Below are positions 1,419-53,949 of a DNA stretch of 64,000 nt, in pieces (within the stretch, counting starts at the first letter, position 1; the number at the start of each line of letters is the position of its first letter). The position numbers and the translations under genes are program-made. The notes below the pieces were generated by a model that worked only from the letters and a program-made list of their open reading frames with translations, ran no database searches and had not been told where the DNA came from. This DNA comes from Prostheceraeus crozeri. Taxonomy: Eukaryota; Platyhelminthes; Polycladida; Euryleptidae. The DNA is taken from the NCBI GenBank assembly GCA_907163375.1, contig CAJQUW010005310.1:124001-188000 (forward strand), in the 5' to 3' direction.

Positions 1419-1476
1419 GGACCAAAGGTCCTCTGGTTACTAACCAATCGGAGCGAAGCTCCTCGAGGCTTTAGCC
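1419..1476. repeat. Array of palindromic mini-hairpins, locus 1 of copy A
   Basis: Four perfect hairpins in a row: GGACCAAAGGTCC (1419-1431), GGTTACTAACC (1435-1445), GGAGCGAAGCTCC (1450-1462) and GGCTTTAGCC (1467-1476). CCTCGAGG overlaps the last two. They lie 15 bp after the stop of the fibre-like gene. The same position in copy B (49070-49100) has none of them. Confidence 0.85.
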
Positions 1477-1519
1477 GAACGTAGATATTTTCCCCAAAAG
1501 TCAAATTTAATCCTAAAAA

Positions 1520-2080
1520 ATGCCTATAATTTATAAACACAATCTTAAACATTTTGCTTCAAATCAAAAAATTGCTCATGAACCATCTCAGAAACCTGTG
1601 TACCATTATGATAGTGTAGAAACTGTCGGAACACAAAAGTTCCTAGGCACCGCAGGTGCCGTCCAAAAAGAAGGGGCTGGCATCTTTTCTGGTATTGGAA
1701 GTATCGTTAACTTAATTAAAAATAATAAAGATTTGATTACATCTGCTGCAAAAGGAGCAGCTGCTATAGGTAGTACAGCTAGTGCAATATCAAATGCTGT
1801 CAAGTCTCAAAACGAATTAAAACAACTAGAAGCTATTCGTAAACTTAGGAATGATTCCGAAGAACTAAAAAATTTAAAAAAACTTTCAGAGGAAACAAAA
1901 AACAAAATTGCTAACATAGCTGTTGGGGAAACCTTGAGGAGCGGAGCTCCGTCTAATAGTAAACATAATGAAAATAAAAATAATAAAAAAACAATTGAAG
2001 AAATAAGAGGAAATGCCGTGAGTAGCAACCTTCGGTCTAACCAGCAAAGCTGTAGCGGAGCTGGTCTAGCAAAATTCTAA
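1520..2080 (+). CDS. Minor virion protein with hydrophobic Ala/Gly segment (copy A)
   Basis: 186 residues. A polar N-terminus is followed at about residues 55-95 by a Gly/Ala/Ile-rich segment (GIGSIVNLI, then AAKGAAAIGSTASAIS) that looks membrane-active. A charged helix rich in Leu, Lys and Glu follows, then a variable tail. Proteins with this plan occur next to capsid genes in Polintons and small DNA viruses and are thought to act as core or membrane-lytic proteins; that role is inferred here. Compared with copy B it has an extra in-frame block at 1628-1660 made of two hairpins, and a different tail containing another hairpin at 1938-1950. It lies between the fibre-like and major capsid genes on the same strand. 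Confidence 0.6.
   Translation: MPIIYKHNLKHFASNQKIAHEPSQKPVYHYDSVETVGTQKFLGTAGAVQKEGAGIFSGIGSIVNLIKNNKDLITSAAKGAAAIGSTASAISNAVKSQNELKQLEAIRKLRNDSEELKNLKKLSEETKNKIANIAVGETLRSGAPSNSKHNENKNNKKTIEEIRGNAVSSNLRSNQQSCSGAGLAKF
1628..1660. repeat. Two hairpin modules inside a coding region (copy A only)
   Basis: GGAACACAAAAGTTCC (1628-1643) and GGCACCGCAGGTGCC (1646-1660) lie within a stretch that copy B lacks. The extra bases keep the reading frame of the minor virion protein, so they read through as about 12 additional residues. Confidence 0.8.
1938..1950. repeat. Hairpin module inside a coding region (copy A)
   Basis: GGAGCGGAGCTCC (5-bp arms, GGA loop) lies in the variable tail of the minor virion protein. 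Copy B has a different hairpin, GGCGTAGCC, in the corresponding variable stretch (49541-49549). Confidence 0.7.
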
Positions 2081-2084
2081 AGTT

Positions 2085-2205
2085 ATGTTTTTTAGTAAAA
2101 TTTTTTTAGTAAAATTTTTTTAGTAAAATTCTAAAATTATATTTTAGCAAAATTTTTTTAGTAAAATTTTTTTTTAGTAAAATTTTTTTAGTAAAATTTT
2201 TTCTG
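2085..2205. repeat. TAGTAAAATTTTTT tandem array before the major capsid gene (copy A)
   Basis: About seven or eight imperfect copies of a 14-19 bp unit, TAGTAAAATTTTTT, fill the gap before the capsid gene. Copy B has roughly twice as many at 49652-49885. The array ends about 45 bp before the capsid ATG and may be promoter or leader DNA. Confidence 0.75.
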
Positions 2206-2246
2206 TCTGTGAGAAAAAACAAAAAGTCAAATTATTTTTTATAAAA

Positions 2247-3580
2247 ATGTCTTCGCTTATCGAAAATAAATTTAGATTAGACGATCCTCCGTTCGTCAGT
2301 TACAATCAAAAAAAGAATGACTATATAAGAATTGCTATGAATCCCGGATCTTCCAGTAGAGTAAATACTGGAGGTGATTTAATTTCTGAAGTTGATAATC
2401 AGCAGAGTTATTTATATCTACCTGATTCATTTTTACACTGTGAATATTCTTTGTATAGTGATGCCAATTTTACAACACCATTACCAGATAGCGATAATAT
2501 TGCACTAGAGAATAATTTCTTTCCAAGATTATTTACACAAATGCGTTTAGATGTTGCAACTCAAAATATAGAAACAATAAGTGATTCTCCAGGTGTATTT
2601 GATACAATGCTTAGATTTGTAACAATTGGTGAAAATAATAAAAAGTATGAAATCGAAGGTTGGTTTCCTGATACTAATGATGGTATAATTGTTGATGATT
2701 TAACTCACGCTGGAACAGATGCAGCAGGAATTGCGAAAGATGTAGAAAATATTGCAAAACATTTAAGTAAAACAAACAATGATGCATATAAAGAAAGACG
2801 TGAATTTAACAAGAAAAGTAAACAGACAGTAAATTGGTCATTGTCTCCATTATTCGGATATTTAGATTATGATAAAATATCATATCAATTAAAATTTAAA
2901 TTAATAATTCATCGTACAGCAAATAATGAATTAATCTTTTTTGGTAAGACTGGAAAAAAAGCATATTTAAAAATTGATAGACTTGAATGGTGGATTAAGC
3001 ATATTACTCCTAGTTTAGAGATTGAAACAGCTATTGCAAAAAGATTAAATACTAACAAACCAATTCCAGTAAATTTTCTAAAGCGTACTGCTAGTTCAGT
3101 AACTTTTTCCGAACAAAGATTTAACTGGCATTTTACTAGAACTGCGAATACTCCAAGATATTTATTACTAACTTTTCAAAGAAATAATTCTCCAAGTTTT
3201 GATAAGAACAATAATCTCTTCCATATTAATACAATTCGAAGTTTACAAGTTCATTAAATCAAACCCGTTATCCAATTGATCCATTAAGATTTGACGATAG
3301 CAATAATCAATTTATGGAAGGATATGATTCTTATCGAAATCTTTGTATAGAATTTGGAGTTGAACCACAATTAACTCCTGGAGATTGGAGACATTTATAT
3401 CCTGTTTTCTGTTTCGATTTAAGTGCACAATCTGAAGATATTATCAAGAGTGGCTGTGATGTAACAATTAATATTGAAAAAAAAGATTCCACAACTTCAT
3501 TGATGGCTTATGGTTTATTGCTAGAAGATGCAAAATATTCTATTGAAGTTCTTAATGGGAGGATGTCTAGGATCGGTTAG
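2247..3580 (+). pseudogene. Major capsid protein, frameshifted (copy A)
   Basis: Homologue of the intact 444-residue protein at 49937-51271 in copy B. The reading frame is open for 336 codons, then ends at a TAA at 3255-3257 after a one-base length difference from copy B near 3250. The remaining C-terminal part continues in another frame to 3580. Size, position and the conserved C-terminal block (YDSYRNLC, then FDLSAQSEDI) fit the hexon-like double jelly-roll capsid protein of Polintons. The stop codon at 3578-3580 lies inside a hairpin module. Confidence 0.8.
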
Positions 3581-3631
3581 TAACCTTAGGACCTTTGGTC
3601 CGATAGGCTAAAGCCAGAGGAGCTTCGCTCC
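3575..3631. repeat. Array of palindromic mini-hairpins, locus 2 of copy A
   Basis: GGTTAGTAACC (3575-3585, containing the capsid stop codon), GGACCTTTGGTCC (3589-3601), GGCTAAAGCC (3606-3615) and GGAGCTTCGCTCC (3619-3631). These are the reverse complements of the four modules at 1419-1476, in a shuffled order. The matching place in copy B (about 51268-51290) lacks them. Confidence 0.85.
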
Positions 3632-3644
3632 GATAAATTAATTA

Positions 3645-3745
3645 AAATTTTTTCATAACTAGAATAGATTAAAAACTCTTACCTTAACATTTTTCATAAC
3701 TAGAATAGATTAAAATTTTTTGGTAACTTAAAATTTTTTTATTAA
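3645..3745. repeat. CATAACTAGAATAGATTAAA tandem leader array (copy A)
   Basis: Two copies of a unit close to CATAACTAGAATAGATTAAA, with AT-rich spacers, lie directly before the next gene. Copy B has four to five copies at 51285-51500. The unit differs from the one before the major capsid gene. Confidence 0.65.
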
Positions 3746-3747
3746 AA

Positions 3748-4230
3748 ATGTCGCATGCGAAAGGTAATAATAATAAAACTGTTGAATTAAAATTACGTAA
3801 TATTGTTGACAAAAATACCCCTAAAACTATTACGATTAACAAAAAAAAGTATTACATAAGTAAACCAATGATAGAGAATATTCAATTACAGGAAGAAAAG
3901 AATGGCGGGATTCTCCCATTAATTCCACTAATAATAGGTGGCATAGCAGCTGCAGGAAGTGTTGCAGGCGGGACAGCTGGTATTGTCCAAGCAGTAAATA
4001 AAAATAAATCAGAGAAGGCAGCATTAGAAGAACAAAAACGTCATAATAGAGAGTTAGAGAAAGTTGCTAGGGGAGAAGGAATAGTAGATAATTTTATTAG
4101 TAAATTAAAATTAGTTGATGAAGGAAAACGAGTTCTTAAAAATATTCTCCACAATGTTGATGATTTAATTGAAATTAAAGAAACTAAAGATGGTTCTGGA
4201 ATATATCTAAGTCCTAGTATGATAAGGTAA
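3748..4230 (+). CDS. Membrane-active minor virion protein (copy A)
   Basis: 160 residues. The first 50 are basic and strand-forming. Residues about 54-80 are a Gly/Ala/Ile/Leu-rich hydrophobic segment (GGILPLIPLIIGGIAAAG). A charged helix containing KRHNRELEKVARG follows, and the protein ends SGIYLSPSMIR. A Gly-rich hydrophobic segment, an ARG-type helix and a short GIYL-type end recur in small minor capsid or core proteins of Polintons and adintoviruses. I infer a membrane-lytic or DNA-associated virion role. It is intact here and frameshifted in copy B. Its stop codon lies in a GGTAATAACC palindrome. Confidence 0.65.
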   Translation: MSHAKGNNNKTVELKLRNIVDKNTPKTITINKKKYYISKPMIENIQLQEEKNGGILPLIPLIIGGIAAAGSVAGGTAGIVQAVNKNKSEKAALEEQKRHNRELEKVARGEGIVDNFISKLKLVDEGKRVLKNILHNVDDLIEIKETKDGSGIYLSPSMIR

Positions 4231-4251
4231 TAACCTCAGAACCTTTGGTTC
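4226..4251. repeat. Hairpin modules over the stop codon (copy A)
   Basis: GGTAATAACC (4226-4235) contains the stop of the upstream gene, and GAACCTTTGGTTC (4239-4251) follows 3 bp later. Copy B keeps an imperfect version (51981-52007). Confidence 0.75.
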
Positions 4252-4807
4252 TTTTCGGTAAAACATTCATTTTATTTTATCTTTTAAATTTTTTTTTATC
4301 TTTTAAAATGAATTCTAAAAATTCCGAAAATTTAATTAAATTAAAAATTTCTAATTTAGATTTATTGAATTATCTATTAAACAAAAATAAAAACTTAAAT
4401 TGTAAAATTTATGAAGGTAACGACGACAAACAAAGTTTGGCTACTACCTACGGTGGTGACATACAAAAAACATTAGAAAACTTTCCTGGATTTATTTGGA
4501 GTAAATATTCGAAAGAAAAACATCTTCCTGGTCATTCATATACCGGTCCAGGAACTCGATTAGATATAAGACTAGATGAGAATAATAATCCGAAACCAGG
4601 TGAAGAACCGATAAATAGAGTAGATGCCGCAGCTTACAGGCATGATTTAGCTTATCGAAATCATGATCTAAGTTCTCGACATGCAGCTGATAAGAAGATG
4701 ATTCAAGAATTAGATAGTATTCAAAATCCTACATTTAGAGAAAAAATTGAAAGAATGTTTGTTAAAAAGAAGCTAAAATATTATTCGGCCAGGGTTTAAA
4801 TGAAACG

Positions 4808-4862
4808 ACAGCTAAGCTGTCTGAGAGCAACGCTCGAACTAATAACTCTGAGAGCAACGCTC
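4808..4862. repeat. Hairpins and a 27-bp duplication in the PLA2-integrase linker
   Basis: ACAGCTAAGCTGT (4808-4820) and two copies of GAGCAACGCTC (4825-4835 and 4852-4862) lie in the linker. The second copy arises from a tandem duplication of about 27 bp. Copy B has a single GAGCAACGCTC at 52594-52604. Confidence 0.75.
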
Positions 4863-5178
4863 GAACCTACGCGTCTGAAATCCACAAGGAATATAGAAGG
4901 CCTAAATATTTATTGAAAGTAAAAGTATTTAATAAAGATGATATTTGGAGTGCTGATCTTATTCATATGCCGAATGAAAGGGACTACAAATACGCATTGA
5001 CCGTTATAGATTTATATACACGATACGCTTGGGTAAAGCCTTTAAAAAACAAAAGTGGTCTATCAGTTAAATATGCGTTTGAAGAAATCTTTAAAGAAAG
5101 TAAAAGAAAGCCAAAAAAATTGTTTGTTGATAAAGGGTCGGAATTTTATAACCGAAACGTTCAGCCACTATTTGAAAC

Positions 5179-5204
5179 AGACGAAAAGTCATCGCCAAGG
5201 CTCA
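5179..5204. repeat. 26-bp block with small palindromes, absent from copy B
   Basis: This block sits between the second catalytic Asp and the catalytic Glu of the integrase. It contains GACGAAAAGTC and GCCAAGGC, both short inverted repeats. Its net length of +25 bp relative to copy B shifts the reading frame. Confidence 0.65.
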
Positions 5205-5680
5205 GTTTATTCAACTGAAAATGCAGTGAAGGCCGTAGTGATAGAAAGATTCAATCGGACGTTAAAAAATAAATTATTCAAGAAATTTACTGAGCAAAGA
5301 AATCAGAAATGGTTGAAGATATTACCAGGAATTGTGGAAGAGTACAATAATAAAGTTCATTCTGGTATTGAAGAAACTCCAAAGAATGCTTCTGACGACC
5401 CTGATGTAGTACGAAAGAAAATATTCGAGAATATTAATTTGAATGAGAGTAATCCGAATTTGCAGAAACTTAAGCCGAAATTTAAAATTGGAGATAGAGT
5501 TAGAATATTTAAATATAAGAATAAATTTGAAAAAGGCTTTGTTGGCTATTGGACTAAAGAAATATTTGAAGTTTGCAAAATAAATCAAAGTTTTCCGATT
5601 ACTTATGAAATTAAAGATTTAGATAATGAGGATATCAGAGGCCGTTTTTATCAAAATGAATTACAGAAAACAGAGCTTTA

Positions 5681-5715
5681 ACCTTTAGGTGGCGCTTTAG
5701 CTAGCTTCGCTTGAG
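5681..5715. repeat. Short palindromes between convergent integrase and protease genes (copy A)
   Basis: ACCTTTAGGT (5681-5690) starts on the last base of the integrase stop codon, followed by partly palindromic GCGCTTTAGCTAGCTTCGC. This corresponds in position to the hairpin cluster at 53427-53472 in copy B, but with different modules. Confidence 0.5.
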
Positions 5716-6174
5716 TTATAGATTGTTTAACTCTAACATAATATCTAGAAATGGTACTCCTTTTTGTAATTTGTACAAAACGTATAAACATAATTGTCCA
5801 CAATAGGTAGTGCCTGGTGTTTGAATTTGAAACGTATTGTATGTTCCCGTTCCAAGTAATTCTTTTACTTCATTTGTAGGGGGCAAACCCTATGAATCAA
5901 AATAATAGTTCTGCTGATGATTTTTAACGCCTGCTGACCAATGTACACCTTTTTCATCTGACGTATGAAGATTTGTTATGAAATTTACAGTTATTGATGG
6001 AACTTTGTTCCGGGAACTGAAGGTTTCTGTTGGCCTATTTTTTAGGAATTGTAATTCATCCCTCATCAATATGTGAAAATTCTTTATTCCTAATCGATTA
6101 GCGATTTTCTTTAGGTCGAAATTCGTTGTCGTTTGTGTTCCATATAATTTCAAAAACTCATTTATGTTGCTCAT
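5716..6174 (-). pseudogene. Adenain-type cysteine protease with a nonsense codon (copy A)
   Basis: Homologue of the intact 161-residue protease at 53464-53949. It starts at an ATG at 6172-6174 and keeps the catalytic His in a GVHWSAG motif, an FDS motif and the YCGQLC cysteine motif. A TAG at 5890-5892 interrupts the same frame just after the FDS motif. The part downstream of it stays in frame to 5716. It also lacks a short insertion present in copy B after the His motif. In the intact family this enzyme matures capsid precursors. Confidence 0.85.
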
Positions 6175-6221
6175 TTTATAATAAAAAAATTTCTTAAGGG
6201 AGCCCCTAGAAGTCAGAAGGG

Positions 6222-6373
6222 AGGGGGTATTGATTTAAAACTGTTCTCTAATGATGTCTTTCCTTACTACTTGGGGGTATTGATTTAAAACATTTTTATA
6301 ATGATGACTTTCCTTACTACTTGGGGGGGTATTGATTTAAAACTGTTCTCTAATGATGTCTTTCCTTACTACT
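6222..6373. repeat. Tandem repeat, three units of about 50 bp
   Basis: A unit beginning GGGGGTATTGATTTAAAAC and ending CCTTACTACTT is present three times in copy A and twice in copy B (53996-54098). It lies between the protease gene and its truncated duplicate. Confidence 0.85.
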
Positions 6374-6402
6374 TATTCGATTTTGAAATTATTTAATTTA
6401 GA

Positions 6403-6591
6403 TTAAATTAAAACGTTACATTGTTGCATTGTATTAGTAGAGTTAGTGTTTAGCACATCTTTTATCAATAGTAATTCATTACTCATCAATATGTGAAAAT
6501 TCTTTGTTCCCAATTGCTTAGCAATCTCATTTAAATCGAAATTCGTAGTTTGTTTACCGTATATTTTTTGGAAGTCTCTAATGTTTATCAT
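6403..6591 (-). CDS. Short duplicate of the protease N-terminus (copy A)
   Basis: A 62-residue frame starting at an ATG at 6589-6591. Its first 45 residues closely resemble the first 45 of the adjacent protease (FQKIYGKQTTNFDLNEIAKQ against a similar run there). It has no His or Cys catalytic motifs. It looks like a tandem duplicate of the 5' part of the protease gene rather than an enzyme. A frameshifted version exists in copy B (54115-54324). Whether it is translated is unknown. Confidence 0.45.
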   Translation of the reverse strand: MINIRDFQKIYGKQTTNFDLNEIAKQLGTKNFHILMSNELLLIKDVLNTNSTNTMQQCNVLI

Positions 6592-7252: not shown

Positions 7253-7880
7253 TAAAATTCATGAATTTGAAATTCTTAACTTTTATGATTTTCGGTGTCC
7301 TGGAACGGTCATGATTTTGGGGGTGAAAATTGTAATTCTCAAATTTGAGATTCTTAACTTTTATGATTTTCGGTGTCCTGGAACGGTCATGATTTTGGTG
7401 GGGGTGAAAATTGTAATTCTCAAATTTTGAGATTCTTAACTTTTATGATTTTTTCGGTGTCCTGGAACGGTCATGATTTAAGCGGGGGTAAAAATTGTAA
7501 TTCTCAAATTTGAGATTTTGAAAAATTTGAAAATTGGGTATTTTTAAAAACGCCCAAATTTGTGAACTTAGGTCTTCATAACCTGAAAAAGGGTTCAAAT
7601 TCATGAATTTATGTCGTTTTTAAAAAGTACCATTTTATCAAAAATGGTACTTTTTGAATGGACTAAATTCATGTATTTAGGTCTTAAAAACCTGAAAAAG
7701 GGTTCAAATTCATGAATTTATGTCGTTTTTAAAGATACTATTTTTTTGAATTTTAGGTGTCCTGGAACGGTCTAAATTCATGTATTTAGGTCTTAAAAAC
7801 CTGAAAAAGGGACAAAATTCATGAATTTATGTCGTTTTTAAAGATACTATTTTTTGAATTTTGTGGTGTCCTGGAACGGT
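7253..7880. repeat. Two adjoining tandem repeat families
   Basis: Three units of about 80 bp (7265-7505) share GGTGTCCTGGAACGGTCATG. They are followed by three units of about 109 bp (7575-7880) starting CCTGAAAAAGG. The 109-bp family also shares the GTGTCCTGGAACGGTC motif, so the two families are probably related. They begin right after the Polinton end. No coding function is apparent; the small open frame here is made of repeats. Confidence 0.8.
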
Positions 7881-39092: not shown

Positions 39093-39172
39093 ACGCGAAG
39101 CTAGAGAAGTTTAATTTTCTTCTTCTTCTTTAAAAATAAAAATAAAATAAAAATGAATTTTTTTATTAAAAA

Positions 39173-42556: not shown

Positions 42557-42587
42557 GGGCGAAGCCCTGGAAGACATCTCCGATGTC
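42557..42587. repeat. Hairpin modules inside the PolB coding region
   Basis: GGGCGAAGCCC (42557-42567) and GACATCTCCGATGTC (42573-42587). They fall in a low-complexity linker shortly after the first exonuclease motif and keep the frame. Confidence 0.85.
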
Positions 42588-43531: not shown

Positions 43532-45688
43532 CCCTTTAAGCGCCAAAGTCGCATTATTGCGACGAGCAACTTGTACGTTGATATTGGTAACATTATATCG
43601 GTTTTACTTTGCTTTACTGATGCACATATTCATATCAGGTATCTGTTGATCACAACAAGTCTTCTTCATTCATTTACTTCGCCTAGATTGGTTATAATGA
43701 CCGTGTGGAGAACCAATCATTGGCGAGATTTCTATCGATTTTGAACACACGCAATCACACTGTTATCGTGACTGTGTTTGCTTGTGGGAAGCGTGTGATC
43801 ATTCTTCCAGGATGGCACGACGTAGATTCGGTGCAGAAAGAGCAGGAGAATTGATCACTCAGGACTCCGGTAGTGAACCAGAATCAGAAAATGATGTAGA
43901 CATACAACTTTCAGGTCTTGGTCATTCTAGTAATGCTCTCGAAATTGGTAATGGAGACTCCCTGCCGCCCCCTCGTAGTCGACGCCGCCGGATTACTGCT
44001 CCGGAGTTACAGCAGGAATGGACTATTCTCGATGGACCAGAGCAGCAGTTGGACCATTGGTTGCCAGTTTTTGTGATAATAATACGGGATATCAAGGTGA
44101 TCTAAATCTAGAAACTGCTGCACCTATTGATGTGATAAACTTATTCTTTACATCCGACTTCTGGACTTTGTTAGTGGCAGAGACCAATCGTTATGCTGAA
44201 CAATATCTCAATGACAATGAGCTTCCCCCAAAATCGCGGTTTAGAGATTGGAAACCAGGAACTGTTCCAGAAATGAAGGCTTTCCTTTCTTTACATTTCG
44301 CCATGGGCCTTGTCCAGAAGTCAGAAATTGAAGACTATTGGTCAACCTACTGGCTAACACAGACAACCGGTTTTTCTATAATCATGTCCAGAAATCGCGG
44401 TGAAATAATATTATCATTTCTGCATTTCAACAACAATTCAGAACAGATACTACGTGGTACGCCTGGTTATGACCAACTATTCAAAATTCGACCATTGATC
44501 AATGTTTTACAACCCAAGTTTTCTGCTTTGTATAATCCAAAGAAAGAATTATCTGCGGATGAACTGACGATTGCTTTCAAGGGCAGAAGTGTTTTGAAAC
44601 AGTATAACAAAATGAAACCTGATAAATGGGGATACAAAGGATTTGCCGCACCTGAGGTAGAAACAGGGTATCTTCTTGATATTTCTTTGTATGTTGGTAA
44701 ATCTGACGAAGACGATAGTGGTGCGTCTCCCTCACATCGCGTTGTTCGAGATCTGGTGCGCAGGTATGAAGGGAAAGGTCACGAAGTGTATATCGACAGT
44801 TATTACAGTGGAGTCTCTGTTGCTATAGATCTCAGTTACAAAGGTATTGGTGTCTGTGGCACTATAAATTCAAACAGACGCGGTCTTCCATTGGGCTTGA
44901 AGCCAGCGAATCTATCTCTACAGAAAGGGGATGATTCTGTATTTGCAAGGAATGGTAAGCTTTTGGTATGCGCCTGGCAGGATACCAAACGCGTTATTAT
45001 GTCATCCACTGTTCACACAAATGATTGTGTGGAAAAGCAGATTCGATCTAGACAGAGTGAGACTGGATATCGAACCATTTCGAAACCAGTATGTGTTGCT
45101 GATTATAACTAACACATGGGTGGTGTGGATCCAACCGGGCAGAAATCCAAAACCTATCTGTTTCCTCATCGCTCCAGGAAATGGTATCACAGAATTGTGA
45201 ACACTTTTTTGAGCATTTGTGCTGTGAATGCCCATATCATATTCAAGTCGCATCCACCAAATTCCTCAATCTCATTGAAATCTTTCATTCAATAGATTTG
45301 TATACCGCTGCTGGAAGATTACGAAGTTGTCCAACGGCGCGGCAGACGAAGTTCGGGTGACATGCCCCAAAGACTAATTGAAAGGCACTTCCTGGAGCAA
45401 ACAAACACCAGACCCGATTGTACTGTTTGCAGTGATCGCACAGTAGAGGGCGGGCGGCGACAGACACAATTCAAGTGTCAAAGATGCACCGTGCCACTCT
45501 GCGTGTATCCTTGTTTTGAAAGATACCACACGCTATTGAACTTCAAACTGTGTCATGTTTGACACTTGATATTATGTACTAGTATATATATTTCATATTG
45601 GAATAGCATGTATTATCATAACATTCGATAATTTGGGAAAAAATAGACATAACAAAAACTATAGAATTTTCGAAAAAATGCTAAAGGG
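43532..45688 (+). mobile_element. piggyBac transposon 2, inserted in PolB
   Basis: Flanked by TTAA at 43528-43531 and 45689-45692, the piggyBac target duplication. The ends are CCCTTTAAGC on the left and the inverted match of CCCTTTAGC on the right. A GTCGCATTATTGCGAC palindrome lies about 20 bp inside the left end. Length 2,157 bp. It splits the DNA polymerase gene between its N-terminal region and its exonuclease part. Confidence 0.95.
43812..45562 (+). pseudogene. piggyBac transposase pseudogene 2
   Basis: It starts with MARRRFGAERAGEL and an acidic stretch with a SRRRR basic motif. The frame changes near 44020-44105. The DDE core follows in 44018-45112: ELSADELTIAFKG (first Asp), YIDSYYSGVSVA (second Asp), then after a TAA at 45110-45112 HMGGVDPT (third Asp). 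A C-terminal Cys-rich domain (CTVCSDRT, then CQRC) lies in another frame and ends at 45562. With at least two frame changes and one nonsense codon it is inactive, although the transposon ends are well kept. Confidence 0.9.
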
Positions 45689-46793
45689 TTAATTCAAAAA
45701 CATTTACTTCTATTAAATTTTTATTCTTTTTATGAAACTTTTTTAACCTATTATAATCATATGGAAATTCATCTAAACCATCCGAAAGATCAAATTCATT
45801 TATGTATTCTTCTTTATTATAATGACTTAGTCTTTCTTTATGATATTCTGCAGGATGTAAATGTGCTATAATACTCCACAGAAAACAATAATCATCTTCA
45901 TTTTTTTATGTTGATTATTTGTGGTGAACTGAAAGGTAAAGGAACATAACTACCACCAGTATTATTTTTATATTTATCAATTACTATTTTCTTAGATAGT
46001 ATTTTAACAAATCTCCAACCAGATTCACGTAACTGGGCTTCAATTATACAATTTTCTAATTTAAGTATCATTTGTTCAAATATGGGTTGTATATCATTTA
46101 CATAATAAATTTCTTGTGAATTTGTAAAATGTCCTTGTATTATTTCTTCAGGAGTTCCATCAGGTCCAGTTTTTGTATAAAGTACTTCTACATTCATATA
46201 ACATTTGAAAGATTTCTTAAATATATTATAAAAGTTGGTTAGAATATCAGAAATAGTTTCATCGGCTTCATTATGTTCAACCGATTCATTAAGTAAGTAT
46301 TTTATATCTGTTACCGCTTCATCGGTTCGTTCAGTTTCATCAAATTCATCAGTATCGCTAAATAAATATCTTCCATTTGACAGGGTTGTCTCATCTTCAC
46401 TATTAAAAACGTTTTTATATTCCGAATGTGAATAATCATCAAACATTTTTTTAACTTTTATATCAGTAGGCAATGTTTCTAGATAGTTTTTATAACTATT
46501 TAATTTTAATATATTTCCTTCATCAACTCGATCTACATTTTGTAAATGCAATTTACTATTTAAATGAGATTGATAACTTCTTTTTGTTTGCAACTTTTTC
46601 TTACATAAGTTACAATAAAACTTGGTATTTTCCATTTTTTATATCTTTTTTAAAAAAAAGTTGTGTTTTAATTTTAGATATAAACATTCTAATATCAAGG
46701 ACTTGAGAGTAAATATATATCATTATATATTTCACGTTCTTTAGTTATTTTATTTTCTTTATCATATAATGTTTTATAATATTAAGTTTTATC

Positions 46794-48098
46794 CTATAAT
46801 GTTTTATCAAAAGATAATTTAAATTTATTTTCACTAACTATTGATTCTTCATCATCATCATAAATTACACTTTTTGGGATTGGATACCATTCTCTTATTG
46901 GAATATCTAACTCTAAATTACATTTTTTATCTGATAATAATATAATAGAGAAAAATATTGGTCTTTGTTCTCTTTTGGAAAATTTAATAACACCAACATA
47001 ATCTGAATCACTTTTAGTTTTTATTAAAGATGATAAAACTTTAAATTGATTAGATGTAAATCCTAATTTAAATTTTGTAGACCCGACACATAGTTGTCTA
47101 ACAGTATCTTCAACTATACCATCATTATTATTTTCAATTGTAAGAAAATGAAATTTAGATAAATTTTGATTATATGTAGTTTTAATATCATGTACATCAG
47201 TATGAGATATAAATTTTTCTTCACTTAAATTTTTATAATTACTAATATTTTTATAATCTTTTTTACCATTTACACCATTTTCAGATGTTTCAGAATCATC
47301 ATCTATATTATTATCATCATTATTATCATAAGATTCTTTAAGATAGGGCAAAGCCCTAGAACCTTCGGTTCGTTTATTATGATTATGATTATGGACATTG
47401 TTAATAGTATAAGGTGTTGTCCACATATAAATTTTTTCTTGTTGAGCTAAGCCATTTATGTAAGATTTTAACAAATTAATATTTAAATTTGAATATAATC
47501 CTATATATGTATCATCATCATATCTTTGCGGCATTTCTAATGTTTCTTGTTTATAAATTGTATCTCTATAATATACTTGACATAATTATTCTTCGTTATG
47601 CTTTTTACTCTCGATATGAATATTATTTTGGTTTTGTTCATCAACAAATAATCTAATTTTTTCCTTTGAGAAAGATTTTAATTTTTTAACTAATTCTTTA
47701 ATATTGATATAATTAATAATTTTAGTTTCTATCCAATCAGTATTACTAATCGGCAAAACTGCTCTAATAAATCCGTAAACATAATTATGTCCTCTTACAA
47801 CCATATTTTCTTTATTTAATTCTACATATGCAACATCATTATATTTACTTACAATCTCCATAAATTTAATAAATGGATCTCCTGGGAAAATACAATAGTT
47901 AGTTTCTATAGAAGGTAAGCCTTTTGTTTGTTCTCTAAATATTTCGGCTTGTAATTCAAATAAAATATTAACATCTATACATGGATTATTATTATTATTA
48001 TTATCAAAACATTTATTTTCAAATCCCGTTGATCTCGTCGAATAAGAAGAACAGGATGATGCGGACGAATATGTTTTTTTTAAATTTGCTTTATCCAT
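46794..48098 (-). pseudogene. Possible sliding-clamp-like protein (copy B), one nonsense codon
   Basis: Starts at ATG 48096-48098; a TAA at 47586-47588 interrupts a frame that otherwise continues to 46794, about 434 codons. Two regions of similar size are separated by an Asn/Asp-rich linker. Each has strand-rich segments and one or two amphipathic helices (IKELVKKLKSF in the first; SNQFKVLSSLI in the second). The second ends LELDIPIREWYPIP. The layout recalls PCNA-type clamps, and the gene lies next to PolB on the same strand. No decisive motif such as a conserved loop is visible, so this is a structural guess. The first region is well conserved in copy A. Confidence 0.55.
47346..47371. repeat. 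Hairpin modules inside the clamp-like coding region
   Basis: GGGCAAAGCCC (47346-47356) and GAACCTTCGGTTC (47359-47371), in frame within the low-complexity linker. Confidence 0.85.
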
Positions 48099-48182
48099 TT
48101 TTTTTATTTTTTTAATTTTTATTAGAAAAAATTTATTTTTTTATTTTTATTAGAAAAAAATTACTTCTTTATTGTTTTAAAA
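48099..48182. repeat. AT-rich divergent leader array (copy B)
   Basis: Holds a little over two copies of the TTTTTATTTTTATTAGAAAA unit seen at 442-516, between the divergent clamp-like and fibre-like genes. Confidence 0.55.
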
Positions 48183-49070
48183 ATGATGTTACCAAATGTT
48201 GGTGGAGGTGCATATATCCCGAATAATCCTGAATTAGAAATAGAGATAGAAAATTATATCATGAAACCAGGAGACGTTTTATCTTGTCCATTACATCTTT
48301 CTATTCTTCCGCAACAAAATACAGAGTTAACAAATAAACAATATGTTGATACAGAAATCAATGACTTAAAAGAAAAATATATAAACGATGTTTTGGTTCC
48401 ACTCATGAATGAATTAAAGTTGCTTAAACTTAATGACAAATCATTAAAAGAAAAATTATTAAAACTTGATAAAAAGGATAGAGAGCTAGAAGCAGATATA
48501 GCAAAACTTTTTAAAAAGATTTCAGAACAATCAAAAATTTTAAAAATCCTTTCTTTAAATTTGAAATCTGCTGTCATCAAAAATAAACATCAGATAAAAA
48601 TGTTAAAAGAACAATTAGAAGATGAAATAGAAAAACTACCTGAAAGAATTAAAAAAAATTTAAAGCAGTTACAAACTACATTCCAAAAAAGTGTTGATGA
48701 ATTAAGTTCCAAAATTACTCAACAAATGAAAAAGATGAATAGAATAATAAATGAAGTAAACTCACTTAATCAAAAAGTTGATAAAATGAAAACTCTTAAA
48801 ATCAATTTAGAAAATGAATTAAAGAAAAATTTACAAGAAAACTCTAAAGAAAATAAAGAACAGTTAGATTCTGTTAAAAGACAATTAGATGTTCTTAAAA
48901 TTAAGTTAAATGCTCTTAAAGCGGCGTTGAAGATGATTCAGGAATAAATGCAAGTTAATAGAAAAGAAATTAAAGTACATCACACGCTACTTGACGCAAT
49001 AGATAAAGTGCAACAATCAATTAATAAAGTTATCTCGAAGTTGTTGTCCATTCACAAACGTAAATCTTGA
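48183..49070 (+). pseudogene. Fibre-like coiled-coil protein with a nonsense codon (copy B)
   Basis: Very similar to 517-1404 in copy A. The frame stops at a TAA at 48945-48947, 254 codons in. The following sequence up to 49070 remains similar to the last 40 codons of copy A in the same frame. The product would lose its basic C-terminal end but keep the N-terminal GD...NKQYVD block and most of the coiled coil. Confidence 0.75.
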
Positions 49071-49141
49071 TCATAAACGTAAATCTTAGGGTAAATATTA
49101 ACGTAAATATTTTTCCCAAAAGTCAAATTTATTCCTAAAAA

Positions 49142-49648
49142 ATGCCTATAATTTATAAACACAATCTTAAACATTTTGCTTCAAATCAAAGAATTGCTCA
49201 TGAACCACGTATGAATCCTGTTTATCATTATGATAATAGAGAAACAGTTCACACGGAAGGAGCTGGCATCCTTTCTGGTATTGGAAGTATCGTTAACTTA
49301 ATTAAAAATAATAAAGATTTGATTACATCTGCTGCAAAAGGAGCAGCTGCTATAGGTAGTACAGCTAGTGCAATATCAAATGCTGTTAAATCTCAAAACG
49401 AATTAAAACAACTAGAAGCTATTCGTAAACTTAGGAATGATTCTGAAGAACTAAAAAATTTAAAAAAACTTTCAGAGGAAACAAAAAACATAATTGCTAA
49501 CATAGCTGTAGTGACTGATAGTAAACAGGAGAAGAAATCAGGCGTAGCCATAAAACGTTCAATTGAAGAAATAAGAGGTAATGGTGTCAACAGCAACCTT
49601 CGGTCTAACCAGCAAAGCTGTAGCGGAGCTGAACTAGCAAAATTCTAA
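49142..49648 (+). CDS. Minor virion protein with hydrophobic Ala/Gly segment (copy B)
   Basis: 168 residues, intact, similar to 1520-2080. It lacks the in-frame hairpin block of copy A. Its variable tail differs and contains its own hairpin (49541-49549). The conserved core is the AAKGAAAIGSTASAIS segment and the charged helix after it. The conservation of the core but not the tail suggests the tail tolerates insertions. Confidence 0.6.
   Translation: MPIIYKHNLKHFASNQRIAHEPRMNPVYHYDNRETVHTEGAGILSGIGSIVNLIKNNKDLITSAAKGAAAIGSTASAISNAVKSQNELKQLEAIRKLRNDSEELKNLKKLSEETKNIIANIAVVTDSKQEKKSGVAIKRSIEEIRGNGVNSNLRSNQQSCSGAELAKF
49541..49549. repeat. GGCGTAGCC hairpin in coding sequence (copy B)
   Basis: Three-base arms around GTA. 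The same GGCGTAGCC word recurs at 53448-53456. It is absent from the copy A gene. Confidence 0.55.
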
Positions 49649-49651
49649 AAT

Positions 49652-49885
49652 TATATTTTAGTAAAATTTTTATAATTACATTTTTTAGTAAAATTTTTTT
49701 GGCAAAATTTTTTTAGTAAAATTATTTTAGTAAAATTATTTTAGTAAAATTTATTAGTAAAATTTTTTTAGTAAAATTTTTTTAATTACATTTTTTAGTA
49801 AAATGTTTTTAGCAAAATTTTTTTAGTAAAATTATTTTGGTAAAATTATTTTAGTAAAATTTTTTAGTAAAATTTTTTTAGTAAA
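49652..49885. repeat. TAGTAAAATTTTTT tandem array before the major capsid gene (copy B)
   Basis: About 14-15 imperfect copies of the unit, twice the number in copy A. It again ends just before the conserved leader GAGAAAAAACAAAAAGTC. Confidence 0.75.
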
Positions 49886-49936
49886 ATTTTTTCTGTGTGT
49901 GAGAAAAAACAAAAAGTCAAATTATTTTTTATAAAA

Positions 49937-51271
49937 ATGTCTTCGCTTATCGAAAATAAATTTGAATTAGATAAACCACCAGGTGTTAGTTATAATCAAA
50001 AAAAGAATGACTATATAAGAATTGCTATGAATCCCGGATCTTCCAGTGGAGTAAATACTGGACGTGATTTAATTTTTGAAGTTGATAATCAGCAGGGTTA
50101 TTTATATTTACCTGATTCATTTTTACACTGTGAATATTCTTTATATAGTGATGCCAATTTTACAACACCATTACCAGATACCGATAATATTGCACTAGAG
50201 AATAATTTCTTTCCAAGATTATTTACACAAATGCGTTTAGATGTTGCAACTCAAAATATAGAAACAATAAGTGATTCTCCAGGTGTAATTGATACACTGC
50301 TTAGATTTGTAACAATTGGTGAAAATAATGAAAAGTATGAAATCGAAGGTTGGTTTCCTGATACTAATGTTGGTATAATTATAGATGATTTAACTTACGC
50401 TGGAACAGACGCAGCAGGAATTGCGAAAGATGTAGAACAAATTGCAAAACATTTAAATAAAACAAACAATAGTGCATATAAAGAAAGACGTGAATTTAAC
50501 AAGAAAAGTAAACAGACAGTAAATTGGTCATTGTCTCCATTATTCGGATATTTAGATTATGATAAAATATCATATCAATTAAAATTTAAGTTAATAATTC
50601 ATCGTACAACAAATAATGACTTAATCTTCTTTGGCAAGACTGGAAAAAAAGAATATTTACAAATTGATAGACTTGAATGGTGGATTAAGCATATTACTCC
50701 ATGTTTAGAGATTGAAACAGCTATTGCAAAAAGATTAAATACTAACAAACCAATTCCAGTAAATTTTCTAAAGCGTGCTGCTACTTCAGTAACTTTTTCA
50801 GAGCAAAGATTTAACTGGCATTTTACTAGAACTTCGAATACTCCAAGATATTTATTACTAACATTTCAAAGAAATAATTCTCCAAGTTTTGATAAGAACA
50901 ACAATCTTTTTCATATTAATACAATTCGAAGTTTACAAGTTTCATTAAATCAAACCCGATATCCAATTGATCCATTAAGATTCGATGATACCAATAATCA
51001 ATTTATGGAAGGATATGATTCTTATCGAAATCTTTGTATAGAATTAAGAGTTGAACCACAATTAACTCTTGGAGATTGGAGACATCTATATCCTGTTTTC
51101 TGTTTCGATTTAAGTGCACAATCTGAAGATATTATCAAGACTGGTTGTGATGTAACAATTAATATTGAAAAAAAAGATTCCACAACTTCATTGATGGCTT
51201 ATGGTTTATTGCTAGAAGATGTAAAATATTCTATTGAAATTCTTAATGGAAAGATGGCTAGGATTAATTAA
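49937..51271 (+). CDS. Major capsid protein, double jelly-roll type (copy B)
   Basis: 444 residues, intact, from ATG 49937. It lies where Polintons encode their hexon-like capsid protein. It is strand-rich, with blocks LYLPDSFLHCEYSLY (about 50-65), VNWSLSPLFGYLDYDKISYQ (about 200), RLEWWIKHITP, RYLLLTFQRNN and, near the end, CFDLSAQSEDI and VTINIEKKDS. These features fit the double jelly-roll major capsid proteins of Polintons and adintoviruses. Trimers of it would form the icosahedral shell. Only a structure comparison could prove the fold. The copy A homologue has a frameshift near 3250. Confidence 0.75.
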   Translation: MSSLIENKFELDKPPGVSYNQKKNDYIRIAMNPGSSSGVNTGRDLIFEVDNQQGYLYLPDSFLHCEYSLYSDANFTTPLPDTDNIALENNFFPRLFTQMRLDVATQNIETISDSPGVIDTLLRFVTIGENNEKYEIEGWFPDTNVGIIIDDLTYAGTDAAGIAKDVEQIAKHLNKTNNSAYKERREFNKKSKQTVNWSLSPLFGYLDYDKISYQLKFKLIIHRTTNNDLIFFGKTGKKEYLQIDRLEWWIKHITPCLEIETAIAKRLNTNKPIPVNFLKRAATSVTFSEQRFNWHFTRTSNTPRYLLLTFQRNNSPSFDKNNNLFHINTIRSLQVSLNQTRYPIDPLRFDDTNNQFMEGYDSYRNLCIELRVEPQLTLGDWRHLYPVFCFDLSAQSEDIIKTGCDVTINIEKKDSTTSLMAYGLLLEDVKYSIEILNGKMARIN

Positions 51272-51284
51272 TTTTTTGATAACT

Positions 51285-51500
51285 TAAAATTTTTTTAGTA
51301 ATTAGTAATAAAATTTTTTTGTAACTAGAATAGATTAAAAATTCTTAACTTAAAATTTTTCGTAACTAGAATAGATCAAAAAATTTTGGTAACTTAAAAT
51401 TTATTCATACCTAGAGTAGATTAAAAAAATTCTTAGATTAAAATTTATTCATAACTAGAATTGATTAAAATTTTTGATAACTTAAAATTTTTTTATTAGA
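51285..51500. repeat. CATAACTAGAATAGATTAAA tandem leader array (copy B)
   Basis: Four to five imperfect copies, compared with two in copy A, ending just before the ATG at 51502. Confidence 0.7.
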
Positions 51501-51501
51501 A

Positions 51502-51985
51502 ATGTCGCAATCGAAAAGTAATAATAATAAAACTGTTGAATTAAAAATACGTATTATTGTTGACAAAAATACACCTAAAACTATTACGATTAACAAAAAA
51601 AAGTATTACATAAGTAAACCAATGATAGAGAATATTCAATTACAAGAAGAAAAGAATGGCGGGATTCTTCCATTAATTCCACTAATAATAGGAGGCATAG
51701 CAGCAGCAGGAAGTGTTGCAGGTGGGACAGCTGGTATTGTCCAAGCAGTAAATAAAAAATAAATCCGAGAAGGCAGCATTAGAAGAACAAAAACGTCATA
51801 ATAGAGAGTTAGAGAAAGTTGCTAGGGGTGACGGAATAGTAGATAATTTTATTAGTAAATTAAAATTAGTTGATGAAGGAAAACGAGTTCTTAAAAATAT
51901 TCTCCACAATGTTGATGATATAATTGAAATTAAAGAAACTAAAGATGGTTCTGGAATATATCTAAGTCCTAGTATGATAAGGTAA
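51502..51985 (+). pseudogene. Membrane-active minor virion protein, frameshifted (copy B)
   Basis: Homologue of 3748-4230. The frame is open for 86 codons, through the GGILPLIPLIIGGIAAAG segment. It then meets a TAA at 51760-51762 at an A-run one base longer than in copy A. The rest, including the KRHNRELEKVARG helix and the GIYLSPSMIR end, continues in another frame to 51985. Confidence 0.8.
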
Positions 51986-52061
51986 TAACCTCAGGACCTT
52001 TGGTTCTATTCGGTAAAACATTTATTTTATTTTATCTTTTAAAAGTTTTTTATCTTTAAAA

Positions 52062-53398
52062 ATGGATTCCGCAAATTCCACAAATTCCAAAAATTTAATT
52101 AAATTAAAAATTGCTAATTAGATTTATTAAATTATCTATTAAACAAAAATAAAAACTCAAATTGTAAAATTTATGAAGGTAACGACGACAAACAAAGTTT
52201 GGCTACTACCTACGGTGGTGACATACAAAAAACATTAGAAAACTTTCCTGGATTTATTTGGAGTAAATATTCGAAAGAAAAACATCTTCCTGGTCATTCA
52301 TATACCGGTCCAGGAACTCGATTAGATATAAGACTAGATGAGAATAATAATCCGAAACCAGGTGAAGAACCAATAAATAGAGTAGATGCCGCAGCTTACA
52401 GGCATGATTTAGCTTATCGAAATCATGACCTAAGTTCTCGACATGCAGCTGATAAGAGGATGATTCAAGAACTAGATAGTATTCAGAATCCTTCCTTTAG
52501 AGAAAGAATTGAAAGAATGTTTATTAAGAAAGCTTTACAAGCTAAAATATTATTCGGTCAGGGTTTAAATGAAACGACAACAAAGCTGTCTGAGAGCAAC
52601 GCTCGAACTTATGCCTCCGAAATTCATAAAGAATACAGAAGGCCTAAATATTTATTGAAAGTAAAAGTATTTAATAAAGATGATATTTGGAGTGCTGATC
52701 TAATTCATATGCCGAATGAAAAAGATTATAAATACGCATTGACCGTTATAGATTTATATACACGATATGCTTGGGTAAAGCCTTTAAAAAATAAAAGTGG
52801 TCTATCAGTTAAATATGCGTTTGAAGAAATCTTTAAAGAAAGTAAGAGAAAGCCAAAAAAATTGTTTTTTGATAAAGGGTCGGAATTTTATAACAGAAAT
52901 GTTCAACCACTATTTGAAACTGTTTATTCAACTGAAAATGCAGGGAAGGCCGTAGTGATAGAAAGATTCAATCGGACGTTAGAAAATAAAATTTTCAAGA
53001 AATTTACTCAGCAAGGAAATCAGAAATGGTTGAAGATATTACCAGGAATTGTAGAACAGTACAATAATAAAGTTCATTCTGGTATTGAAGAAACTCCAAA
53101 GAATGCTTCTGACGACCCTGATTTGATAAGAAAAAAAATATTCGAGAATAATTATTCGAATGAGAGTAATCCGAATTTGCAGAAACTTAAGCCGAAATTT
53201 AAAATAGGAGATAGAGTTAGAATATTTAAATATAAGAATAAATTTGAAAAAGGCTTCGTCGGATACTGGACGAAAGAGATATTTGAAGTTTGTAAAATAA
53301 ACCAAAAAATTCCGATTCCTTACGAAATCAAAGATTTAGATGATGAAAATATCAGAGGCCGATTTTATCAAAATGAATTACAACGAACTGATTTTTAA
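52062..53398 (+). pseudogene. Phospholipase A2-integrase fusion protein (copy B)
   Basis: After a short N-terminal part that is frameshifted near 52118, one frame of 399 codons (52199-53398) carries two domains. First, a parvovirus-VP1-type phospholipase A2: calcium loop YTGPG at residues 35-39, catalytic His-Asp at 69-70 and Tyr 73. Second, a retroviral-like integrase: Asp 167 (DIWSADL), Asp 225 (FDKGSEF), Glu 255 (ERFNRT), then a basic C-terminal domain with IGDRVRIF. The last two acidic residues are 29 apart instead of about 35, so this integrase may be defective. The linker (about 110-150) holds a hairpin module. PLA2 would help membrane escape; the integrase inserts the element. Confidence 0.85.
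52594..52604. repeat. GAGCAACGCTC hairpin in the PLA2-integrase linker
   Basis: Single copy here, two copies in copy A. Four-base arms, AAC loop. Confidence 0.7.
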
Positions 53399-53426
53399 TT
53401 ATCATTATTATTGGAACTAACGTTTC

Positions 53427-53472
53427 GGGAATGAAATTCCCTTGTTAGGCGTAGCCATAGAACCTATGGTTC
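53427..53472. repeat. Hairpin cluster between convergent genes (copy B)
   Basis: GGGAATGAAATTCCC (53427-53441), GGCGTAGCC (53448-53456) and GAACCTATGGTTC (53460-53472). The last overlaps the protease stop at 53464-53466. The integrase gene ends 29 bp before the first module. Confidence 0.85.
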
Positions 53473-53949
53473 GTTCAATTCTGACATAGTATCTAGAAAT
53501 GGTACTCCTTTTTGTAATTTAAATGAAACATAAAGACATAATTGACCACAGTAAGTAGTTCCCGGTTTTTGAATTTGAAATGTATTATAAATTCCATTGC
53601 CAAGTAATATTTTGACTTCGTTTGTTGCAGGTAAACCATAAGAGTCGAACCAATAGTTCTCAGCCTCTGGGCGGTCGAAATAGTAATTATCTTGATTTTC
53701 ATTAAAGATACCTGCAGACCAATGTATTCCTTTTTGGTCTGACGTAAGAAGATTTGTTATGAAATTTATAGTTATAACTTTGTTCCGGGAACTGAAGGTT
53801 CCTGTTGGCTTATTTTTTAGGAATTGTAATTCGCCTCTCATTAGAACATGAAAATTCTTTGTTCCCAATTGATTTGCGATTTTCTTTAAATCGAAATTCG
53901 TTGTTGTTTGTGTTCCATATAATTTCAAAAACTCATTTATATTGCTCAT
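53464..53949 (-). CDS. Adenain-type cysteine protease (copy B)
   Basis: 161 residues, intact, from ATG 53947-53949. The catalytic His is His76 in GIHWSAG, the acidic residue is probably Asp102 in WFDSYG, and the Cys is Cys134 in YCGQLC. Order and spacing match adenovirus protease and the Ulp1-like proteases of Polintons. It would cleave capsid and core precursors during maturation. Its N-terminal 45 residues are duplicated as a separate remnant just beyond it. The gene lies convergent to the integrase, as in copy A, where it is broken by a TAG. Confidence 0.85.
   Translation of the reverse strand: MSNINEFLKLYGTQTTTNFDLKKIANQLGTKNFHVLMRGELQFLKNKPTGTFSSRNKVITINFITNLLTSDQKGIHWSAGIFNENQDNYYFDRPEAENYWFDSYGLPATNEVKILLGNGIYNTFQIQKPGTTYCGQLCLYVSFKLQKGVPFLDTMSELNEP
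53788..53802. repeat. Hairpin inside the protease gene
   Basis: GGAACTGAAGGTTCC, with five-base arms. Copy A has a related sequence with a mismatch in the arm (about 6013-6027). Confidence 0.55.

Follow-up and report, generated by a model that had tools for sequence, protein, structure and literature searches.

Double-hairpin elements of Allomyces mitochondria, reportedly described by Paquin in 2000, are mobile units of adjacent hairpins; they are organellar, and we liken them by description to the units reported here. Repetitive hairpin-forming elements occur in sponge organelle genomes, sometimes inside genes, and are likened here as organellar mobile units of adjacent hairpins (PMC2800124). 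Yeast mitochondrial GC clusters are likewise GC-rich palindromic units in AT-rich DNA, and excerpts of their description give competing proposals for the movement of mitochondrial hairpins (PMC4478555). Rickettsia palindromic elements, as outlined in part of PMC10969869, are bacterial, ~150 bp long and inserted in frame in unrelated genes with a conserved peptide. In mimivirus, hairpins at 3' ends terminate viral transcripts as a rule, according to sections of PMC4402537, and intact vertebrate Mavericks bear 6-bp target duplications, according to sections of PMC8097293. Judged by titles and the beginnings of abstracts, none of the open-licence Polinton/adintovirus papers listed reports a hairpin family of the kind described below, and neither do passages of two of them.

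The window, by which we mean the entire 64-kb stretch of DNA analysed, contains two Polinton copies (A and B) together with gypsy and piggyBac elements. The hairpin-bearing Polintons carry capsid, polymerase and integrase genes, and their hairpin-rich stretches are 1-6500, 36501-43800 and 45900-54000. A preliminary description had proposed a family of mini-hairpins scattered through these two copies, comparable to the GC-rich hairpins of mitochondria; the data fit this proposal, on a larger scale than it envisaged, with ~2,500 candidate genomic places matching Polinton genes (2,619, 2,573 and 2,522 first-look candidates per search, of which the best 40 were scored). Thousands of Polinton copies are present in one animal genome, with double-hairpin inserts in some and missing in others.

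Comparison of inverted repeats with shuffled sequence, proposed as a check in the preliminary description, found 27 loop-3 hairpins (arms of at least 4 bp with at least 3 G/C) in the two Polinton copies against ~2 in shuffles; by stretch, in the order given above, there were 14, 6 and 7 against 0.97, 0.57 and 0.50 in 30 dinucleotide shuffles each. One overlapping pair, 53455/53460, is included in the 27. Four-base loops were not in excess in these stretches (0, 1 and 0 versus 0.63, 0.63 and 0.80 shuffled), while five-base loops were elevated in copy A (7 versus 0.9) and somewhat in 45900-54000 (3 versus 0.77). A scan for double hairpins returned 9, 6 and 2 against 0.03, 0 and 0 in 40 shuffles, with both strands counted and many loci therefore counted twice, and 0, 1, 0, 1 and 0 in the other stretches of the window. 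A chance origin is ruled out by the shuffles, the double hairpins alone numbering 17 against ~0.03. Hairpin density is unequal inside and outside the Polintons, as the preliminary description had it: loop-3 counts outside were near expectation (4 versus 3.3; 11 versus 6.9; 3 versus 3.4; 1 versus 1.2; 1 versus 0.6) except in 54001-58200 (6 versus 1.4). In that stretch a duplicated CGGATCCGGGATCCG (56096, 56132) supplies two of the six hairpins, and a third (56101) overlaps the one at 56096. In stretch 17501-30000, loops of four and of six bases are mildly over-represented (16 versus 7.4; 12 versus 6.7).

The individual palindromes listed in the preliminary description are present and real, but the loop is 7 bases at 39076 and 6 bases at 1628, and the hairpins at the stop codons at 3575 and 4226 have weaker stems (2 G/C) that adjoin strong ones. 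Most hairpins form adjacent pairs, a feature which that description did not contain. A typical unit is 28-34 nt long. Its first hairpin, frequently of the form GG..CC, is joined by a linker of 2-5 nt, in many cases TAG or GAG, to a second one whose loop is closed as C-NNN-G, and a G ends the unit; unit termini are C...G only. The sites in copy A are as follows.

1417-1480, no strand assigned: between genes, two double-hairpin units of 31 nt each in an array, GGACCAAAGGTCC + GGTTACTAACC and GGAGCGAAGCTCC + GGCTTTAGCC
1627-1662, plus strand: 36-nt in-frame insert (34-nt unit + GT duplication) in ORF 1520-2080; copy B empty
1926-1953, plus strand: in-frame insert with GGAGCGGAGCTCC, 24 or 27 nt, in ORF 1520-2080; copy B empty
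2028-2062, plus strand: in-frame hairpin cluster with 18- and 48-nt steps between copies; copy B counterpart 49588-49630
3573-3634, plus strand: double-jelly-roll capsid gene with two units at its stop codon and an AT duplication; none in copy B
4223-4255, plus strand: ORF 3748-4230 with a unit at its stop codon; copy B counterpart 51980-52008
4422-4457, plus strand: 36-nt in-frame insert in the PLA2 gene, containing CAAACAAAGTTTG and another hairpin; copy B counterpart 52184-52219
4804-4862, plus strand: in-frame double hairpin with 27-nt tandem steps; copy B counterpart 52571-52608
7324-7338, minus strand: terminal repeat; the most used insertion site in its empty state, GAATTACAATTTTCA (exact-match counts)
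7405-7419, minus strand: terminal repeat, second empty form of the most used site (sequence comparison)

Copy B contains both filled and empty sites.

38164-38195, minus strand: unit CGGGCGAAGCCCTAGAACCATCGGTTCG, which ends ORF 37430-38182 by providing its TAG stop; also here in L096, L100 and L107
39076-39092, plus strand: hairpin GGGAG...CTCCC near an ORF end (window sequence)
41490-41518, plus strand: double hairpin GGACTTTGTCC-TAG-AGCCATCGGCT within the DNA polymerase ORF (double-hairpin scan)
42556-42591, plus strand: double hairpin GGGCGAAGCCC + GACATCTCCGATGTC within the DNA polymerase ORF (copies compared); second hairpin GAACCTTCGGTTC in L113 and L126
47343-47372, plus strand: unit GGGCAAAGCCCTAGAACCTTCGGTTCG within ORF 46794-47534; also in L091
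53427-53472, plus strand: GGGAATGAAATTCCC ... GGCGTAGCC-ATAG-AACCTATGGTT, 3' of the integrase ORF (double-hairpin scan)
41150-41154, plus strand: empty site in the DNA polymerase ORF; filled in L104 (+30 nt, flanks diverged)
46279-46281, plus strand: empty site in a C2H2 ORF; filled in L089, L097, L111 and L118
49069-49071, plus strand: empty intergenic site; elsewhere either of two different 31-nt units, or arrays
49246-49248, plus strand: empty counterpart of 1627-1662 (B-like copies compared)

Some of the second part of 53427-53472 is found again within a different ORF, at 49540-49560.

The loop is closed by C-G in 23 of 27 Polinton hairpins against 8 of 26 elsewhere in the window (Fisher 8e-5). 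Of 161 hairpins, 106 have C-G and 55 have G-C at stem pair 4, with no mismatches, the search pattern having allowed C or G on either side and the counts having been halved from both strands; stem pair 2 has a G.T or A.C mismatch in 13. Stems change on both sides with pairing kept, and since these changes are common to related copies they represent few events. Predicted DNA folding is modestly better than that of shuffled sequence (z -1.5 to -3.4). The alignment of units mixes first hairpins of unequal length, which shifts their pairs. As sequences differ between units at different coding sites, a single family need not account for all of them.

Across 58 further Polinton copies (29 A-like, 29 B-like), hairpin clusters differ in presence or number at ~10 sites within 4 kb, so that hairpin positions vary between copies, where the preliminary description had weighed fixed positions as a point against its proposal. 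Of 29 related copies, 7 have no unit in place of the 1417-1480 array (a clean empty site in 6, a different form in 1), the remainder having from one to at least four. Site 1627-1662 is filled in 28 of 29 A-like copies, and among the 29 B-like copies AGAAACA^GTTCAC is empty in 22 and filled in 7. At the PLA2 site, empty GGTAAC^GACATAC and filled forms were both found, and three copies bear a different double hairpin there. Hairpins are retained at other sites: at least one at 4804-4862 and at 52609 in every copy listed, one at 49510 in nearly all, and the double hairpin at 41490-41518 in 8 of 8 near copies, one of which is the window's own locus. Of 138 distinct polymorphic insertions of at least 15 nt and at least 30% GC, 97 contain a triloop hairpin (14.2 in shuffles, maximum 25), as do 11 of 35 GC-richer deletions (2.4 in shuffles), against 1 of 28 AT-rich insertions.

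Pairs of empty and filled sites show inserts mostly of 28-34 nt plus a short duplication. A 2-nt duplication is the best fit at six sites: AT in the terminal repeat, AC at 46281 (cleanest in L118), AT at 49068, AT at 51262, GT at 49245, and AC or GAC at 52169. A clean 2-nt duplication does not account for four sites, namely 49585 (TGGT), 46314 (TTA/TTC), 51977 (mixed) and 49555, and at 41150 and 46380 the flanks are too diverged for one to be read. A 3-nt duplication (GAT, ATC) was considered and dropped, as 2 nt agrees better with the pairs at the terminal repeat and at 46281. All six clean sites have the target motif R^RY, which was noticed post hoc. At 49555 a 12-nt repeat flanks a 9-nt hairpin, as could be left by single-strand template switching, a local mutational process that perfects near-palindromes with no element involved. 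As a general account we consider this very improbable, given that it does not explain identical sequence at different sites thousands of times; it is contradicted for the two main units and could hold at single sites.

This repetition was measured genome-wide. A 26-nt unit has 5,146 exact genome copies and another, the second unit of the 1417-1480 array, 1,441, with none for reversed patterns. In 40 sampled loci the 26-nt unit lies in Polinton sequence only, at eight different sites including terminal repeats, its 45 occurrences being distributed among terminal repeats (29), 38166 (3), 41150 (1), 42557 (2), 46281 (4), 46314 (2), 46380 (3) and 47344 (1). It is preceded by C in 44 of 45 and followed by G in 44 of 45. 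Polinton context was found in 60 of 60 sampled loci, the samples coming from the first 100 listed places rather than random draws. The 26-nt unit has no exact match in viral contigs, nor a 27-nt unit in prokaryote contigs; viral contigs scanned with the capsid protein, a capsid alignment, polymerase and integrase gave no relatives, and a protein search gave 26 capsid homologues (protein records, no DNA).

Alignment of empty and filled sites, another check proposed in the preliminary description, favours mobility through presence and absence at many sites, the duplications and the recurrence of one unit at eight sites, and the hairpin units are very probably mobile. A reading with no mobility would have minisatellite expansion and contraction plus gene conversion among the thousands of Polinton copies: the arrays at 1417, 3575, 4226 and 4807 step by ~31, 30-31, 31 and 27 nt, and first and second hairpins are shuffled among units within arrays. 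Tandem expansion is indeed part of the unit variation, and because the same sites recur in many copies, recombination between copies accounts for part of the pattern; it also inflates the number of changes per site (8 to 33) counted, without a shuffled control, on the capsid tree. As the whole explanation this reading is quite improbable, leaving unexplained both one unit at eight sites and single-unit empty/filled pairs with short duplications. An assembly artefact is unlikely because of in-frame size steps, Polinton-only contexts and thousands of copies.

By exact match the terminal-repeat site is filled in 2,134 cases and empty in 4,895; its terminal position follows from paired inverted places ~15-20 kb apart. 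These filled sites, with several elements filled at both ends by coordinates, and stem pairing conserved despite letter changes would suit DNA signals under selection, which act in the replication, recombination or packaging of Polintons and spread through that benefit, a reading compatible with mobility. The empty sites, which include both of copy A, and the existence of unit-less copies for most sites of the 4-kb region make such selection rather unlikely.

At ten coding sites all size steps are multiples of three (36; 24/27; 21; 18/48; 36/33; 27; 30; 30/27; 30/27; 27), those at 52169 and 52609 being taken from site alignments rather than from anchored lengths. The 26-nt unit is read in one frame, giving (R)TEGSRA(S/L)P, in 12 of 12 translated loci at six coding sites. 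A seventh place, in L113 and L126, reads GQALEPSV, compatible with an oppositely oriented unit and the one apparent reversal of an otherwise constant orientation in genes. All six coding sites lie in minus-strand genes, so the constant frame and orientation could have a cause other than selection. At other coding sites hairpin units add other peptides.

Units also lie over stop codons, at 3575, 4226 and 38167, and the preliminary description had likened these to mimivirus 3'-end hairpins, which would make them RNA signals that end or protect Polinton transcripts. In 12 of 13 mismatched stems the mismatch is G.T on the TTT strand, which is the sense strand at the 51977 site, although the 12 may reflect one inherited change. 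The idea is weakened by the 29 copies at the capsid stop, of which 13 are empty, 7 have one unit and 9 have two, by the next stop (4223-4255; 0 to 3 units), empty in 10 of 28 A-like copies, and by units in frame within genes or in terminal repeats, and we judge it improbable. As in mimivirus, palindromes of unconserved sequence stand at gene ends in an AT-rich viral genome (part of PMC4402537), but here they are optional and also occur within genes.

Taken together, the data indicate that the hairpins probably form a family of mobile elements within Polintons, very short, non-coding and defined by their structure, with a 2-nt duplication as the usual form, and that they would work in the manner of mitochondrial GC clusters and double-hairpin elements. 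They share with these presence and absence at homologous sites, several sites per unit, and short direct border repeats (at the six sites, with four misfits and two too diverged). In contrast to GC clusters, they reside in a nuclear virus-like transposon rather than organelle DNA, mostly consist of two three-base-loop hairpins, are often in frame in genes and also lie in terminal repeats. Like Rickettsia elements they insert in frame and add a conserved peptide, but in an animal genome and with a unit of ~28 nt and ~ten residues (18-48-nt steps). Intact vertebrate Mavericks have a 6-bp duplication from integration (part of PMC8097293), against ~2 bp for the hairpin units.

Because the sampled loci included no target in host DNA, new insertions may occur during extrachromosomal replication or recombination of Polinton DNA, a route that we propose tentatively and regard as doubtful. 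Where the polymerase exposes single strands, units would be able to fold and then be copied into, or joined to, staggered breaks, with some enzyme making the 2-nt stagger; no such enzyme was found among the 13 copy B ORFs scanned or by Pfam, no transposase was recognised there besides the Polinton integrase (nested piggyBac and gypsy apart), and Pfam matches of the ORFs without an assigned function pointed to no convincing candidate for a hairpin enzyme. Arrays of inserted units would then grow or contract, recombination would carry units from copy to copy, and the insertions that persist would be mainly those in frame or between genes.

To our knowledge, the mechanism by which mitochondrial hairpin elements move is unsettled. 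A second, nuclear system with thousands of near-identical host copies makes this question testable, since it offers thousands of cases in which to count insertion sites, target preference, orientation and gains against losses. If mobile, these units would be among the smallest mobile DNAs described, as far as we know. It is plausible, at a little under an even chance, that 28-34 nt of gene-less DNA constitute a nuclear mobile element, a parasite of Polintons recognised by its fold that moves only in replicating Polinton DNA and adds in-frame peptides and stop codons to viral genes, by a hairpin-insertion mechanism common to mitochondria and tied to strand-displacement replication. The presence and absence of double-hairpin inserts give the impression of a minute parasite living in a larger one; if true, one parasite would be nested in another and would supply virus-like genes with in-frame peptides.

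The preliminary description had claimed that palindromic mini-hairpins, nearly always with three-base loops, are scattered through both Polinton copies of the window. Inspection of the sequence located hairpins at the places it had named, and the family proved to be real: hairpins with three-base loops numbered 14, 6, and 7 in stretches 1-6500, 36501-43800, and 45900-54000, respectively, against 0.97, 0.57, and 0.50 in 30 dinucleotide shuffles of each stretch. The excess was peculiar to three-base loops, with none for four-base loops and a smaller one for five-base loops. Within the window, the loop was closed by a C-G pair in 23/27 Polinton hairpins versus 8/26 outside Polintons, and a double-hairpin scan found the Polinton hairpins to sit as adjacent pairs. 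In non-Polinton DNA, a CGGATCCGGGATCCG hairpin occurs twice, 36 nt apart (56096-56146), and lifts the hairpin count locally.

Host Polintons and elements nested in copy B
1 to about 7.9 kb: Polinton copy A, truncated by the window start
About 30.0 to 54.9 kb: Polinton copy B
30310-36822: gypsy element nested in copy B, long terminal repeats 30310-30882 and 36251-36822, 99.65% identical
43528-45692: piggyBac element in the copy B polymerase gene, TTAA at 43528 and 45689

A domain scan of copies A and B found a double-jelly-roll capsid, an A32-like ATPase, a family-B DNA polymerase, and integrase domains, and self-comparison of the window gave 86% identity between the copies over 7 kb. The nested gypsy element carries a SCAN domain and has its integrase ahead of the reverse transcriptase. 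We read the piggyBac element as sitting in a TTAA of the polymerase gene. Such a gypsy element, together with piggyBac elements, suggests that the genome is an animal's. Phospholipase A2-like and integrase domains share one open frame in copy B (52199-53398). A first-look search for Polinton genes elsewhere in the genome returned about 2,500 candidate places; the best 40 per search were scored, and those 40 were 96-100% identical. About 2,500 candidate matches is more than the per-genome copy numbers given in the consulted sections of PMC8097293. The window also has a long minisatellite of 47-nt units (58245-62000; 71-73 overlapping matches, mostly >90% identity) and two 500-nt inverted repeats, 97% identical and about 9 kb apart (17540-18039 and 27176-27676), which could be a large foldback or DNA transposon.

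The hairpin pairs follow a common plan across sites and orientations: the first hairpin is joined by a short linker, in many cases TAG or GAG, to a second one with C-NNN-G, and a G ends the unit. Three units from the window illustrate this arrangement.

Representative hairpin units
38164, minus strand: GGGCGAAGCCC-TAG-AACCATCGGTT-CG
41492: GGACTTTGTCC-TAG-AGCCATCGGCT-TG
3575: GGTTAGTAACC-TTAG-GACCTTTGGTC-CG

DNA folding of eight pieces gave exactly two hairpins in six, with z-scores of -1.5 to -3.4 across the set; the exceptions were a piece from one fetched genomic locus (L099) that ended inside the unit and 42552-42595, which had an additional outer stem. In arrays at 60 loci, the two of the window among them, first and second hairpins are variously combined (GGACCAAAGGTCC, 73; GGAGCGAAGCTCC, 52; GAACCAAAGGTTC, 12; and rarer forms), and the second hairpins are of three main types. 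Stem pair 4 was C-G or G-C without mismatch in all 161 hairpins, as found with a search pattern that allowed C or G on either side; stem pair 2 was G-C in 133, A-T in 15, and mismatched in 13.

The 2.05-Gb genome was searched for individual units. GGGCRAAGCCCTAGAACCNTCGGTTC occurred 5,146 times and its reversed control 0 times. Forty loci were fetched among the first 100 places listed; for the second batch of 20, matches of the GGGCAAA form and the majority of paired places were deliberately passed over. All 40 matched the window's Polinton sequence. The 45 occurrences were spread over eight sites: 29 lay in terminal repeats and the others at 38166, 41150, 42557, 46281, 46314, 46380, and 47344; C preceded and G followed the sequence in 44/45 each. 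The repeat with this main insertion site is presumably terminal, as judged from listed matches that form inverted pairs spaced by about 15-20 kb. There, GAATTACA/ATTTTCAC became GAATTACA-AT-(28 nt)-AT-TTTCAC, and exact matching counted 4,895 empty and 2,134 filled sites. The two patterns used were of unequal length, and the one for filled sites was limited to the GGGCGAA form. A second unit had 1,441 genome copies and a Polinton context at 20/20 loci from the first 25 places listed. The intergenic site accounted for 19 of these loci, and the remaining one lay at the capsid stop in the opposite orientation.

Alignment of empty and filled sites, as the preliminary description had proposed, showed that sites vary in unit presence between Polinton copies; copies A and B differ by entire hairpin clusters. 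Among A-like copies, the unit was absent from intergenic site 1417 in 7/29, from capsid stop site 3575 in 13/29, from site 4226 in 10/28, and from in-frame site 1627 in 1/29. Among B-like copies, site 49245 was empty in 22/29 and filled in 7/29 with near-identical flanks, and site 49068 held nothing, arrays, or one of two different units. Both states exist at 52169 and 49585; site 49510 is filled in nearly all copies and empty in copy B of the window, and at 52609 only unit number varies. On a capsid-gene tree, six sites required minimally 8, 10, 14, 20, 28, and 33 state changes, uncontrolled numbers that are inflated by inter-copy recombination.

Size steps within genes were multiples of three at 10/10 measurable sites; at gene ends and between genes, most steps measured 30 nt, 31 nt, or a multiple of these. 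By codon phase, the main length class at four coding sites held 48/60, 55/60, 53/57, and 52/60 copies; the remainder mostly differed by one base, from indels or anchor slips. The 28-nt unit is open in four of six frames and was translated as (R)TEGSRA(S/L)P in 12/12 loci at six coding sites, all in minus-strand genes, with stops within this frame at loci L089 and L117. In the polymerase gene of loci L113 and L126, GQALEPSV is found as well, beside the 42557 site; this fits an apparent additional unit in the opposite orientation. We read the stop codons at 38166, 3575, and 4226 as supplied by the unit itself.

The common in-frame peptide recalls Rickettsia palindromic elements. The Polinton units behave much as the GC clusters and double-hairpin elements of mitochondria do, although their location sets them outside that group. 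The parts of the Polinton and adintovirus literature searched yielded no report of hairpin elements. The Polinton integrase is not an obvious agent of the 2-nt duplication because intact vertebrate Mavericks, according to the consulted sections of PMC8097293, give target duplications of 6 bp. Units lay in Polinton DNA at 60/60 sampled loci, and this restriction is the best clue to the place of unit movement.
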